NCBI RefSeq assembly: GCF_009725235.1
Contig: NZ_WJFC01000071.1
Coordinates: forward strand, 1 to 59,269
Source: Scytonema sp. UIC 10036
Lineage (GTDB): Bacteria; Cyanobacteriota; Cyanobacteriia; Cyanobacteriales; Nostocaceae
Length of the DNA stretch: 59,269 bases
Direction of reading: 5' to 3'
Shown: piece after piece, positions 35,650-39,949 of the stretch
How positions within the stretch are numbered: position 1 is the first letter of the stretch
How the letters are laid out: each line of letters starts with the position of its first letter
Position numbers and translations under genes: made by a program
Notes under the pieces: model-generated
What the model saw: only the letters and a program-made list of their open reading frames with translations
Told to the model about the DNA's origin: nothing
Database searches by the model: none

Positions 35650-36288
35650 TTAAAAAAACAGAGATTGAACAGCTAGATCCTTTTGGGTGATAGTGAAGTT
35701 ACGCTGTTCTGCTGTGGCAATGAATGAAACGATCGCTTCACACGCCACAGCGACGGTTAACATCACCAGGTTTCGTGCCAACGGATAATCACAGACATCA
35801 TCATAAGCATCGGAAGGAACGCGATAAACGTCATTCCAAATCACTTCTGCATAATCAGCCGATAGTCCAGCATGAAGACAAGGTATATTGAATTGTTCGG
35901 CATAATCTTTCACTGCTTGGCGTGCCACACTATTGTCAAAAACATCAACAATTAGCTGGCTGCTTTGGAGTAGTTGAATTGTATTTGCTGATGTCAACTC
36001 CTTGGTTTTAGCATCAACTTTAGTACCAATTGCTCGGTATAAATTGTTAGCTAGTATCTTCGCCTTAAACGCTCCCACATCGGAACGGTAGTAAGGCTGA
36101 GTTGAAAGATTGCGCTCTTCAATGCGATCGCGATCTATCACTGTAAGTCTATCAAAACCAGACCGAGCTAAATTTTCAGCTATGTTAGCTCCTAATGCTC
36201 CAGCCCCACAAATTGTTACAGGATAGTTTTTTAACTTTGCCATCACAGCATTGGTGCGGTAAAGCTGTTCGTGAAAAAAGATACTCAT
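35650..36288 (-). CDS. ThiF/E1-like adenylyltransferase
   Basis: 212 residues from the ATG at 36288. VTICGAGALGANIAENLARSGF is the nucleotide-binding glycine loop. TVIDRDRIEERNLSTQPYY contains the Asp and Arg/Asn that hold ATP-Mg, and VGAFKAKILA the Lys. Then comes LIVDVFDNSVARQAV, and a Cys in YDDVCDYPLARNL (about residue 166) sits where E1s can carry a thioester Cys. Such enzymes adenylate the C-terminal glycine of ubiquitin-like proteins. It is the last gene of a minus-strand group with an unknown protein, a Ro60-like protein and a glycine-ending small protein. It is minimal in size: no rhodanese or second domain. Which protein it activates is not known; the 39223 product is the obvious candidate. 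Confidence 0.85.
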   Translation of the reverse strand: MSIFFHEQLYRTNAVMAKLKNYPVTICGAGALGANIAENLARSGFDRLTVIDRDRIEERNLSTQPYYRSDVGAFKAKILANNLYRAIGTKVDAKTKELTSANTIQLLQSSQLIVDVFDNSVARQAVKDYAEQFNIPCLHAGLSADYAEVIWNDVYRVPSDAYDDVCDYPLARNLVMLTVAVACEAIVSFIATAEQRNFTITQKDLAVQSLFF

Positions 36289-36334
36289 AATAATTTTTAA
36301 TAAAGGCAAAAGGTTCCCTACGTTTTAAATGTTC

Positions 36335-37168
36335 TCAAGACCCCCGTTGTTCCATGACACCCACTAAGGATTGCAAGTCAAAATCGCCATCGCGTCCACT
36401 CAGACAAATACCAGAACTTACAACAGTCAAATCAGTTTTAGCGATCGCACTACTATGGCGAACACCATCAGCCGTTGTCCAATCGACTGTCCAGTAATCG
36501 CCGCGATCGTGGAATTGGTTTAAAGAACCTCCGCCAATTTGCAAAGCCTTTCTCAATCTCCTTTCATCCTGTTGAGGTTGAGCAAATCCCTCAATGCGCC
36601 GAGTTGCTAATTCATACACTGTGCGGATTTCTGGAGTCATGCCCTTAAACTGTAATAAAGATGCAGGAATGAATTGCTTAACAGCAGATTGCAAAGTTTC
36701 AGAAATAGCCGGATCGGTACGGCGATCGACTTCCTCAAACCAGCAGGATTGCCCATTCCAGCGAGCAATAATTTGCTCAAAGGCGACACCCTCAGTGACT
36801 AAATGCACTGGAAGAGGCTTAACGACCTTCAACCGTTGACGCATATCTACTTCATTTACAGGGTATGCCAACCAAGTTTGGAAGCGCAGTTGGTGTGCTA
36901 ACCGCAGTCGTATTTGGGGAAAGTGTTGCAGGTATTCCGCAACCTGGGGTAAGTCTGCTTCTTCTACAACTGTTGCTGTTTTCTCATCTACAGGCTGAAA
37001 GATGCCCCAACCTTCAAATTGACTGGGTTTTGGACGGAAGGTGTAGACCATCCCAGCTACTCGTGTGCGAACCCGTCCACCTTTGACACAGGGTGCAAGG
37101 AATTGGGTGGTAGACAATTGTGCTTCTGCGATCGCAATTTGATTGATTAGCTTACGGATGTCAGGCAT
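36335..37168 (-). CDS. unknown protein of the Ro/ThiF locus
   Basis: 277 residues from the ATG at 37168 (MPDIRKLINQIAIAEAQLST). It is soluble. Notable segments are LAPCVKGGRVRTRVAGMVYTF, GWGIFQPVDEKTATVVEEADL, FQTWLAYPVNEVDMRQRL, FEQIIARWNGQSCWFEEVDRR (one Cys in a conserved-looking turn) and the C-terminal SSGICLSGRDGDFDLQSLVGVME. I do not recognise a family. It lies 47 bp upstream of thiF and downstream of the TROVE gene, so it is part of the same unit. An E2-like or adaptor role is only a guess from context. Confidence 0.7.
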   Translation of the reverse strand: MPDIRKLINQIAIAEAQLSTTQFLAPCVKGGRVRTRVAGMVYTFRPKPSQFEGWGIFQPVDEKTATVVEEADLPQVAEYLQHFPQIRLRLAHQLRFQTWLAYPVNEVDMRQRLKVVKPLPVHLVTEGVAFEQIIARWNGQSCWFEEVDRRTDPAISETLQSAVKQFIPASLLQFKGMTPEIRTVYELATRRIEGFAQPQQDERRLRKALQIGGGSLNQFHDRGDYWTVDWTTADGVRHSSAIAKTDLTVVSSGICLSGRDGDFDLQSLVGVMEQRGS

Positions 37169-37220
37169 AAATAATAGCAATTTTTTTAAACAAGGCTACA
37201 AAGGCAGCCCTATAGTATCT

Positions 37221-37249
37221 GTAGGGGCGCAAAGCCGCCGCGCCCCTAC
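37221..37249. repeat. GTAGGGGCG/CGCCCCTAC hairpin
   Basis: A 9-bp perfect stem with an 11-base loop between the TROVE gene and the unknown gene. The TGTAGGGGCGCGGCGG sequence at 40182 belongs to the same dispersed family. As part of the mRNA it could lower expression of the two downstream genes. Confidence 0.6.
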
Positions 37250-37262
37250 CAACGGTGCGGTT

Positions 37263-39423: not shown

Positions 39424-39457
39424 TGCAATCACCTCTTTTTAACTACAAATTATTGAG

Positions 39458-39667
39458 TGGATCTGACCGGGATTGAACCGATACCCTCCCTGTGAGAGTT
39501 GCACTCACACCTCATGCAAGTTGAAAAAGCTGTGGTAACACACACAGGAATCGCACCTGCAACTTATCGTTTAATAGACGATCGCTCTACTGTTGAGCTA
39601 GTATGTAAGCTTTTTCTGTTAGGGCACAAGTGACATCCGGGAACTCTACCATTAGAGCTACAGACCC
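39458..39667 (-). ncRNA. tRNA-like sequence interrupted in the anticodon loop by unit D
   Basis: The 5' part (from 39667) reads GGGUCUGUAGCUCUAAUGGU, a tRNA acceptor strand, U8-A9 and a proper D-arm (39643-39658). The 3' part reads AUCGGUUCAAUCCCGGU (T-arm, 39466-39482) and CAGAUCC-A (39465-39458). GGGUCUG pairs with CAGAUCC over seven positions. UUCCC and GGGAG make the anticodon stem. Between them, instead of a 7-base loop, lies the whole 125-nt unit D plus short flanks that can pair (GUGAG/CUCAC). No CCA is encoded. It could be a tRNA mimic whose anticodon stem grows into the Y stem, or a dead tRNA invaded by unit D. Confidence 0.65.
39508..39632 (-). ncRNA. Y-RNA-like unit D with tRNA mimic, nested in a tRNA-like sequence
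   Basis: 125 nt, leftward. The stem strands are nearly those of unit B: the 3' strand GCAUGAGGUG is identical, and the 5' strand CACUUGUGC lacks one base. Inner helix AGAAAAAGCU/AGCUUUUUC. Apex: D-arm AGCUCAACAGUAGAGC (39584-39599), anticodon-like arm AUCGU-CUAUUAA-ACGAU (39566-39582) and T-arm CAGG-UGCGAUU-CCUG (39545-39559). ACAUAC/GUGUGU form an acceptor-like helix. The T-loop is less canonical than in B and C. Compensated changes in the stems relative to B support a real RNA structure. Confidence 0.7.
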
Positions 39668-39758
39668 AAGGGATGAATAATTGCGTTCTGCGTTGAGCGC
39701 AGCACCGCAGGTATTGCCTCAATTAGACTATTGCAACAAGAGTCAAAATCAAGGCAAG

Positions 39759-39839
39759 TGGAGCCGTCGGGAATTGAACCCGAATCCTGCAACCGTCCGT
39801 TTGTTGGTTTCGGAGCAGTCGAACGCCAATCGCGACCCC
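39759..39839 (-). ncRNA. tRNA-like sequence E at the head of the array
   Basis: 81 nt. GGGGUCG (from 39839) pairs with CGGCUCC-A (39766-39759) in seven positions. The T-arm UCGGGUUCAAUUCCCGA is canonical. The D-region (AUUGGCGUUCGACUGC) is irregular. The anticodon region folds as CUGC/GCAG and AACC/GGUU with no normal 7-base loop, so no anticodon can be read. It is the first element after the promoter at 39920. Downstream (39680-39758) a decayed D-arm-like stretch, AGUCUAAUUGAGGCAAU, suggests a further, degenerate unit. Confidence 0.55.
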
Positions 39840-39919
39840 AAAAGGGGCATCTATGGGATTGTTAAGGTTCCAAGGACTTGTAGTTTTGCCTTTTGAGGAG
39901 GCTTGTTTTTCATACTACA

Positions 39920-39949
39920 AATGTAATATAAGCTTTTACACAATGTCAA
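39920..39949 (-). promoter_or_regulatory. sigma70-type promoter for the RNA array/Ro locus
   Basis: On the minus strand TTGACA (39949-39944) is followed after 18 bases by TACATT (39925-39920); an overlapping TATATT is also present. Leftward transcription would start near 39912 and reach element E, then the other RNA units and, without an obvious terminator, the small protein, TROVE, unknown and thiF genes. It is the best consensus promoter I found in the window. Confidence 0.6.

Follow-up and report, generated by a model that had tools for sequence, protein, structure and literature searches.

What could bring a Ro60-like protein, a ubiquitin-like protein with an E1-like enzyme, and an array of RNAs that imitate tRNAs into a single transcription unit? 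The question is raised by an operon at positions 35650-39949 of contig NZ_WJFC01000071.1 from Scytonema sp. UIC 10036; the stretch analysed, positions 1 to 59,269 of the contig, is called the window below. In the literature consulted, bacterial Ro/Y particles are studied mainly in Deinococcus, where they act with PNPase, and the purpose of tRNA imitation in Y RNAs is left open. The operon family described here offers several natural cargoes on one RNA stem, changing anticodons, and an adjoining pair of ubiquitin-like (Ubl) and E1 proteins together with a putative stress operator. Together these make the purpose of the mimicry directly testable; the family also connects prokaryotic ubiquitin-like chemistry with very large phages and with the cryptic tRNA arrays of cyanobacteria.

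A preliminary description, made from the sequence of the window, placed all elements on the minus strand, and they are found there at the coordinates of Table 1. In transcription order they are a promoter-like site, RNA unit E, a tRNA-like shell holding unit D, the gene for a 66-residue Ubl protein (ubl), units C, B and A, and the genes for a Ro-like protein, a 277-residue (277-aa) protein and a ThiF-type E1. The operon itself is thereby confirmed, and the identification of the Ro-like protein, the Y-like RNAs and the E1/Ubl pair is supported by the results below, which suggest that the operon may guard RNA under stress. New with respect to that description are the tmRNA character of unit E, the TrcR-type box, the phage-type copies, the varied anticodons in a kept loop, and the additions of some related loci (23S-like cargo, tRNA arrays, an L7/L12 paralogue or Tpt1).

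RNA units with a common stem

Relatives of the operon were collected by searching species genomes with an alignment of the 477-residue Ro-like protein and keeping the best 80 of 188 confirmed relatives, all of them cyanobacterial by record title (loci and other records are given L numbers, genomes G numbers). One regular expression for the stem of the Y-like units, run over these 80 loci and the window, finds 268 units in 80 of the 81 loci and none on the reverse strand; the locus with no unit is L016. An earlier form of the expression gave no match in 83 sequences, either on the reverse strand or after one mononucleotide shuffle of each. In the window both forms match units D, C and B. Unit A, whose loop starts UCCCGAC, fails both, and the later form misses the whole short class (0 of 30), so the unit counts taken from it exclude 30 short units. 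Within the fetched loci, 198 of the 265 units lie between ubl and the Ro-like gene, 26 before ubl, and 27 behind the Ro-like gene, ahead of the 277-aa gene in loci that have it; the other 14 precede the Ro-like gene in loci with no ubl in reach.

The stem consists of two helices and an internal loop, CCCURAC/RACUUG. Pairs 1-4 of the outer helix belong to the selection rule, so only pairs 5-8 are independent; among 197 distinct units these are standard in 194, 188, 159 and 146, with several pair types, as compared with 178, 133, 89 and 55 when slid by -1, a control that stands well above zero, as the 178 of 197 for pair 5 illustrates. Shuffling the 3' letters as a control gives a shorter inner helix than the real units have. 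Between the inner and outer helices, RACUUG, the 3' loop, takes the place of AACUUG in Rfam YrlA, and the 5' loop CCCURAC is unlike that of YrlA. Against the Rfam YrlA model, unit C scores 28.7 bits (a partial match), L082 29.1 bits and L056 37.1 bits over the full length, all below the gathering threshold of 69. Judged from these features, the stem appears to work like a Y stem, though the RNAs fall short of the YrlA threshold.

Sorted by cargo, 234 units comprise 90 with a whole tRNA joined through its acceptor stem, 53 with a permuted tRNA attached at the position of the anticodon arm, 30 with a short hairpin, 22 with a 23S-like sequence, and some smaller classes. Window units B and D belong to the whole-tRNA class, and both ARAGORN and Rfam call tRNAs within them; unit C belongs to the permuted class, whose module is missing from A, B and D. 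The proposal of Y-like RNAs with tRNA-mimicking cargo in the preliminary description is thus borne out, with the stem present in 80 of 81 loci and both whole and permuted tRNAs among its cargoes. Around unit D lies an outer tRNA-like shell in which the Y-like unit occupies the place of the anticodon arm, and the same arrangement, with identical acceptor letters, occurs in 35 of the 80 loci. A unit class with GGTGCGT..GATACGCTGCAAGCCTGAGACC cargo (L042:9794-9940; classes 6 and 9) has no Rfam name.

Variable anticodon loops and other translation-RNA mimics

ARAGORN called 84 of the 90 units of the whole-tRNA class. When called units alone were compared, from 28 Nostoc-group loci for unit B and from 17 for unit D, the anticodon loop was the most variable 7-column window in each set (rank 1 of 120 for B and 1 of 118 for D), with a mean entropy of 0.85 against 0.18 elsewhere in unit B and 0.64 against 0.14 in unit D. 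Among the 78 called units with 7-nt loops, U33 is kept in 75 and a purine at position 37 in 77, and positions 34-36 take the form of 25 different triplets. Changing triplets in a retained loop geometry point to display of the anticodon rather than plain decay.

Unit E had been described as tRNA-like, behind a good promoter. The TTGACA of that promoter is present, unit E is more exactly a mini-tmRNA (transfer-messenger RNA), and an operator box had been overlooked (see below). Against Rfam tmRNA, unit E has an E-value of 6.9e-14 with 41.0 bits (gathering threshold 47), and the copy in L001 2.5e-15 with 46.6 bits, just below the threshold; ARAGORN calls no tmRNA in the window. Homologues of unit E occur in 33 of the 80 loci; among them acceptor pair 5-68 is C-G, U-A or A-U, and 23 of the 33 have G-U at 3-70. 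A G3-U70 pair is the mark of alanine tRNA. The ten homologues with no G-U at 3-70 were judged by fixed offsets, and most of them have a differing or unaligned 3' end.

The 23S-like class is missing from the window. Its 22 units in relatives contain ATAACGGYCCTAAGGTAGNNAAATTC or a near-identical sequence, likened to domain IV of 23S rRNA, at what we take to be helix 69. Two of the five units compared also match a second 23S segment, of 24 nt; it precedes the first segment in 23S but follows it in the unit, so that the cargo reads as if it were permuted at this helix, with the Y stem replacing its loop. The best 25- or 26-nt block of the five units against one 23S scored 32 to 44; in a shuffle control for one unit, the highest of 200 scores was 35, above that unit's own 32. 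In favour of the 23S reading, an exact pattern with 21 fixed bases hits the unit alone in G001 and the 23S alone in G002, has no hit in G003, and has none anywhere when read backwards.

The Ro-like protein

Lack of TROVE similarity in a profile search had been named in the preliminary description as a result that would speak against it. In Pfam the similarity is indeed lacking: at E<=1 neither the window protein nor those of L081 and L082 match TROVE (PF05731), and at E<=0.1 none of 18 aligned Ro-like rows does; three of these rows match vWA_Ro60 (best 0.0066). A positive control, L089, matches Pfam TROVE at 1.4e-45. In profile-profile comparison, the similarity is clear. Using hhalign, the Ro-like profile aligns with classical Ro-type proteins of the same phylum (11 open reading frames, from 11 of 12 fetched loci) with a probability of 97.7 and an E-value of 1.5e-12 over 388 columns. 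Compared half by half, the E-value is 1.1e-10 for vWA and 3.7e-4 (probability 36) for TROVE; the control with crossed halves gives 0.63 and 0.39. TROVE chains from the PDB match weakly, at 2.5e-3 and 1.7e-3, and the DxSxS metal site of the vWA domain (D300, S302 and S304) is invariant in the 18 rows. Homology with Ro over the TROVE and vWA domains together is supported by these alignments, and more weakly for the TROVE half alone. The genome of L001 (G001) also has a classical TROVE match, so that the operon protein represents a second, divergent lineage.

The Ubl protein, the 277-aa protein and the E1

The 66-residue protein is predicted to adopt a beta-grasp fold: its AlphaFold2 (AF2) model has the order strand-strand-helix-strand-strand at a mean predicted local distance difference test score (pLDDT) of 89.9. 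Its gene has 66 codons in all 71 cyanobacterial loci where it was found, and the terminal Gly66 is invariant in 28 aligned rows. No known Ubl family was matched in Pfam, which gives only DUF6390 at 0.19, or in NCBIfam, which gives nothing. The 277-aa protein has no match at E<=1 in Pfam, NCBIfam or PADLOC; Cys255 is kept in 71 of 72 rows, and the AF2 model is weak (pLDDT 70.2, with the C-terminal part below 50). In the ThiF-type protein, the core adenylation residues are kept in 70 or 71 of 71 rows, and Cys27, Cys137 and Cys166 in all 71, one phage contig being counted twice in these rows. The window E1 matches the PADLOC models for E1-E2 systems (4.1e-18) and, below the cut-off, PRTRC_ThiF (1.3e-13).

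Conservation, spread and neighbours

All four protein genes are found in 57 of the 80 loci, and in each of the 57 they lie on one strand in the order ubl, Ro-like, 277-aa, ThiF. Of the 67 loci whose upstream flank measures 6.5 kb or more, 65 have ubl (L040 and L053 are without it); where the downstream flank reaches 9.9 kb or more, the 277-aa gene is present in 52 of 59 and the ThiF gene in 51 of 59. Loss of these neighbours beside other copies would have told against the preliminary description, and they are retained; the E1/Ubl pair adjoining the Ro gene is likewise kept across relatives.

Protein homology searches were limited to the best 120 of 3102 and the best 120 of 1264 matches, and among the matches listed the closest relatives are from Nostoc. 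Matches to the Ro-like profile (E<=0.001), some of them fragments, occur in 33 of 291 genomes drawn from the class, so the system is patchy. Two plasmid records carry it, and several cyanobacterial copies lie on contigs of several megabases. Two tandem Ro-like genes are found in L053 and in L070, and in L070 eight units, by the first expression, precede the first of them.

Recurrent neighbours among the 80 loci, with each cluster named from one scanned representative, are a 241-aa protein (50 loci), an L7/L12 family protein (27), a GNAT family protein (16) and Tpt1/KptA (11). None of these is among the open reading frames of the window operon, where only RNA units lie between ubl and the Ro-like gene. 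In relatives the 241-aa protein sits between those two genes (L001:8626-9348), its one scanned representative having no match in Pfam, NCBIfam or the PDB; an L7/L12 paralogue may lie in the same interval (for example L005:113-502), and Tpt1/KptA, an RNA 2'-phosphotransferase, lies downstream of the Ro-like gene (for example L041:12623-13213).

A TrcR-type box at the promoter

According to PMC10272220, TGTAGTAT is the 8-mer footprinted by TrcR at the Anabaena trn promoter, and TrcR represses the 26-tRNA trn operon, rtcB, rsgA and rimK, with relief under translational stress. The same 8-mer stands at the promoter of the window operon. Across 74 loci (71 fetched cyanobacterial loci, two viral ones and the window), TGTAGTA[TC] occurs within 1.5 kb upstream of ubl in 62, compared with 4.75 expected from mononucleotide shuffles, and in 49 of these 62 a TTGACA lies at most 60 nt upstream of the box; neither viral locus has the box. 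The window operon thus carries a TrcR-type box, and it may be bound by TrcR and derepressed under stress.

In 20 of 63 loci, a boxA-like element lies no more than 220 nt downstream of the TrcR-type box. A related 15-mer, GAACCTTGAAAACTG, is shared by a 16S-23S spacer (L083), the DNA immediately 5' of a 23S gene (L084), the leader of a tRNA array (L086) and one stretch of apparent coding DNA (L085). The array of L086, a separate one in the genome of L060, thus has an rRNA-spacer-like leader, with a TGTAGTAT box just upstream of it. Within the operon loci themselves, at least ten tRNAs are called in 11 of 80; in ten of these the array is upstream on the same strand, and in L057 it is mostly downstream on the other strand.

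Phage-type copies

Scans of viral contigs and phage collections return 13 phage-type records (L110 being the contig of L082). Among them are LR756511 (595 kb, named as an uncultured phage) and contigs from IMG/VR that measure 470 and 390 kb. The Ro-like gene is present in all 13, ubl in 10 (it is missing from L106, L107 and L112), and the 277-aa and ThiF genes in 10, the sequence used from the remaining three ending soon after or within the Ro-like gene. In phage-type records the four genes keep their order and strand, and in three such records the proteins are 32-51% identical to those of the window. The shared Y-like stem is found in five of the 13 (L081, L082, L101, L103 and L111), and tRNAs accompany the operon genes in several. 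Of the two records checked for a terminase, that of L082 has one; none was found in that of L081, which is a fragment. According to a jumbo-phage survey (PMC7824862), some phages have TROVE proteins, viewed as a repair platform with a tRNA-like partner; the terms ThiF, E1-like and ubiquitin-like are absent from its text.

Comparison with known systems

The nearest precedents are the Rsr-Y RNA-PNPase complex of Deinococcus (RYPER) and the rsr-yrlBA-rtcBA operon of Salmonella (PMC7790460 and PMC8058203). As in these, a Ro-type protein is encoded with a Y-like RNA holding a permuted tRNA-like module, an RNA repair enzyme is nearby in some loci, and regulation by stress is probable here. The present family differs from them in having several unit classes per array, whole-tRNA and (in relatives) 23S-like cargo, a mini-tmRNA, another 5' loop, a divergent Ro protein, and a Ubl, an E1 and a Cys protein, whereas the window operon has no RtcB. 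With the Anabaena trn operon it shares the TGTAGTAT promoter box and, in 10 of 80 related loci, upstream tRNA arrays on the same strand; however, ARAGORN calls no real tRNA array in the window. The terms TROVE, ubiquitin, tmRNA and tRNA-like are absent from the main text of PMC10272220.

Bacterial operons for Ubl conjugation (E1-E2 and PRTRC) likewise pair an E1 of the ThiF type with a small Gly-terminated protein, but here the pair is accompanied by a Ro-like protein and RNAs, no E2 is recognised, and no JAB protease was noticed among the neighbour clusters examined. With phage tRNA clusters the family shares tRNA arrays, varied anticodon loops and phage copies. In units B and D, unlike those clusters, the tRNA fold is closed by a Y-type stem, which as drawn would leave no free 3' end for charging. 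Phage tRNAs have been proposed to evade tRNA-targeting defences through mutations in the anticodon loop (PMC10264068), and evasion of such defences is also described in PMC11555353. In the literature searched we found no earlier description of this neighbourhood, though there may be an earlier mention.

What the operon might do

The results above show the array, the conservation of its genes, the common stem and the variability of the anticodon loops. We infer that the Ro-like protein binds the stem of the units, that the RNAs are expressed and induced by stress, that the Ubl protein is conjugated, and that the mimics serve as bait. Protein tagging and nucleotidyl transfer, both suggested in the preliminary description, are hypotheses. 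The mechanism would run as follows. A ring of the Ro-like protein would hold the common stem of several RNAs, each displaying a mimic of a translation RNA: a whole tRNA, a tRNA opened at its anticodon arm or, in relatives, a 23S domain IV sequence; a free mini-tmRNA would be made from the same operon. As baits or decoys, the displayed mimics would draw enzymes that handle or attack translation RNAs, anticodon nucleases being the first candidates because the anticodons vary while the loop geometry is kept. The ThiF-type E1 would activate the C-terminal Gly of the beta-grasp protein, which, perhaps after transfer by way of the Cys255 protein, would then tag or regulate the captured enzyme or the particle. 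The conserved gene order, the common stem, the cargo classes, the variable anticodon loops, the TrcR-type box, the Tpt1 and L7/L12 neighbours and the upstream tRNA arrays speak for this model. We put the probability of such a translation-stress Ro/Y particle, with bait or decoy RNAs and a Ubl-E1 follow-up, at roughly 0.45. The stronger proposal is a tentative one: a new class of RNA-based sensor, common to cyanobacteria and very large phages, in which a Ro particle would catch enzymes that attack translation by means of diversifying translation-RNA baits (tRNAs with changing anticodons and the 23S region we assign to helix 69, with the mini-tmRNA alongside) and would mark the captured enzyme with its own Ubl tag.

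Several observations weigh against bait display and Ubl tagging. Units of the whole-tRNA class are related rather than independent, ARAGORN may favour U33 in the loops it calls, and the triplets could vary through relaxed constraint. The minimum-energy fold of the 23S-like units does not pair helix 69 in the permuted manner suggested above. In Salmonella, YrlA was not cut by an anticodon nuclease; the same account speaks for bait display in suggesting that the tRNA-like domain of YrlA might inhibit that nuclease competitively (PMC7790460). On the protein side, the fold matches listed for the low-confidence model of the 277-aa protein include no E2 enzyme, one part resembling OB/IF1 folds, and neither a JAB protease nor an E3 was noticed among the clusters present in at least eight loci, for which eight representatives were compared with Pfam. 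The E1 and Ubl could serve sulfur transfer instead. Finally, four of ten distinct phage Ubl proteins (L105, L108, L109 and L113) have one to four residues after the conserved FG, so that a terminal Gly is not universal; these tails look as if they needed trimming.

The principal alternative, which we regard as possible but less likely than not, is a decay or repair scaffold like RYPER. Here the Y-like stems would gate the Ro ring, the Ubl pair would regulate it, and the mimics, with no role as bait, would recruit PNPase, Tpt1, RtcB and modification enzymes to damaged tRNA and rRNA. The precedents in Deinococcus and Salmonella (PMC7790460 and PMC8058203), the Tpt1 family in 11 of 80 loci and a possible co-regulation with rtcB through the TrcR-type box all agree with it, but by itself it explains neither the varied triplets with kept U33 and purine 37 nor the several cargo classes per array. 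A sulfur-carrier or RNA-modification system, with a MoaD/ThiS/TtuB-like Ubl charged by ThiF and the mimics as thiolation substrates, guides or similar, would account for the E1/Ubl pair; we hold it to be unlikely, since it calls for neither a Ro protein nor varied anticodons, and no rhodanese or desulfurase was noticed among the recurrent neighbours examined.

The phage-type copies invite another explanation, that the operon is a counter-defence island derived from phages or plasmids, whose tRNA arrays and decoys sustain translation when tRNases fire, and which cyanobacteria now retain. The copies in records of 595, 470 and 390 kb, several with tRNAs alongside, the terminase in the record of L082 (none was found in that of L081), the patchy spread over 33 of 291 genomes and the two plasmid records fit such an origin; against these stand the cyanobacterial TrcR-type box, missing in the two viral loci tested, and the several cyanobacterial copies in multi-megabase contigs, and we consider this explanation rather improbable. 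That the units are merely decaying, functionless tRNA-derived repeats beside unrelated genes is barely credible. The number of units does vary, L016 has none by the later expression, and L015, L040, L051, L053, L058, L067 and L070 have no 277-aa gene within about 10 kb, but against decay stand the compensatory changes in the stem, the near-invariant loops and a gene order that phage-type records share.

Features of the window

The coordinates are collected in Table 1. The ATG starts of the window genes were picked by hand; the starts in the list of open reading frames are slightly upstream, at TTG or GTG.

Table 1. Elements of the operon in the window, in order of transcription
Feature	Positions	Strand	Basis
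TTGACA, -35-like element of the operon promoter	39944..39949	-	direct reading
TGTAGTAT, TrcR-type operator box	39912..39919	-	8-mer identical to the Anabaena trn promoter box
GAACCTTAACAA, boxA-like leader element (tentative)	39859..39870	-	
Unit E, mini-tmRNA in which a short hairpin replaces the messenger part and the tRNA-like domain of tmRNA is kept	39756..39839	-	
Outer shell around unit D, tRNA-like, with acceptor GGGTCTG/CAGATCC and both D and T arms	39459..39667	-	sequence reading
Y-like unit D, carrying a complete tRNA-like cloverleaf (39533-39607) attached via the acceptor stem	39509..39632	-	
66-aa ubiquitin-like protein (predicted), C-terminal end RPEAVYG	39223..39423	-	
Y-like unit C; YrlA-like cargo, a permuted tRNA opened at its anticodon arm, in the order T arm, acceptor, D arm	39073..39212	-	
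Y-like unit B, carrying a complete tRNA-like cloverleaf (38934-39008) attached via the acceptor stem	38908..39033	-	
Y-like unit A; short hairpin cargo	38810..38880	-	likeness to the 30-unit short class in relatives
Divergent Ro60-like (TROVE + vWA) protein, 477 aa	37263..38696	-	profile-profile comparison
277-aa protein, near-invariant Cys255 in GICLSG.D..FDL	36335..37168	-	
ThiF/MoeB-type E1-like adenylyltransferase, 212 aa	35650..36288	-	Pfam ThiF 1.6e-27

Two further genes flank the operon. Downstream on the same strand, at 33733-34380, is a gene for an AlkB-like 2-oxoglutarate- and Fe(II)-dependent oxygenase (Pfam 1.5e-37), and upstream of the promoter, at 40221-44258, lies a large TPR protein with two trypsin-like stretches.

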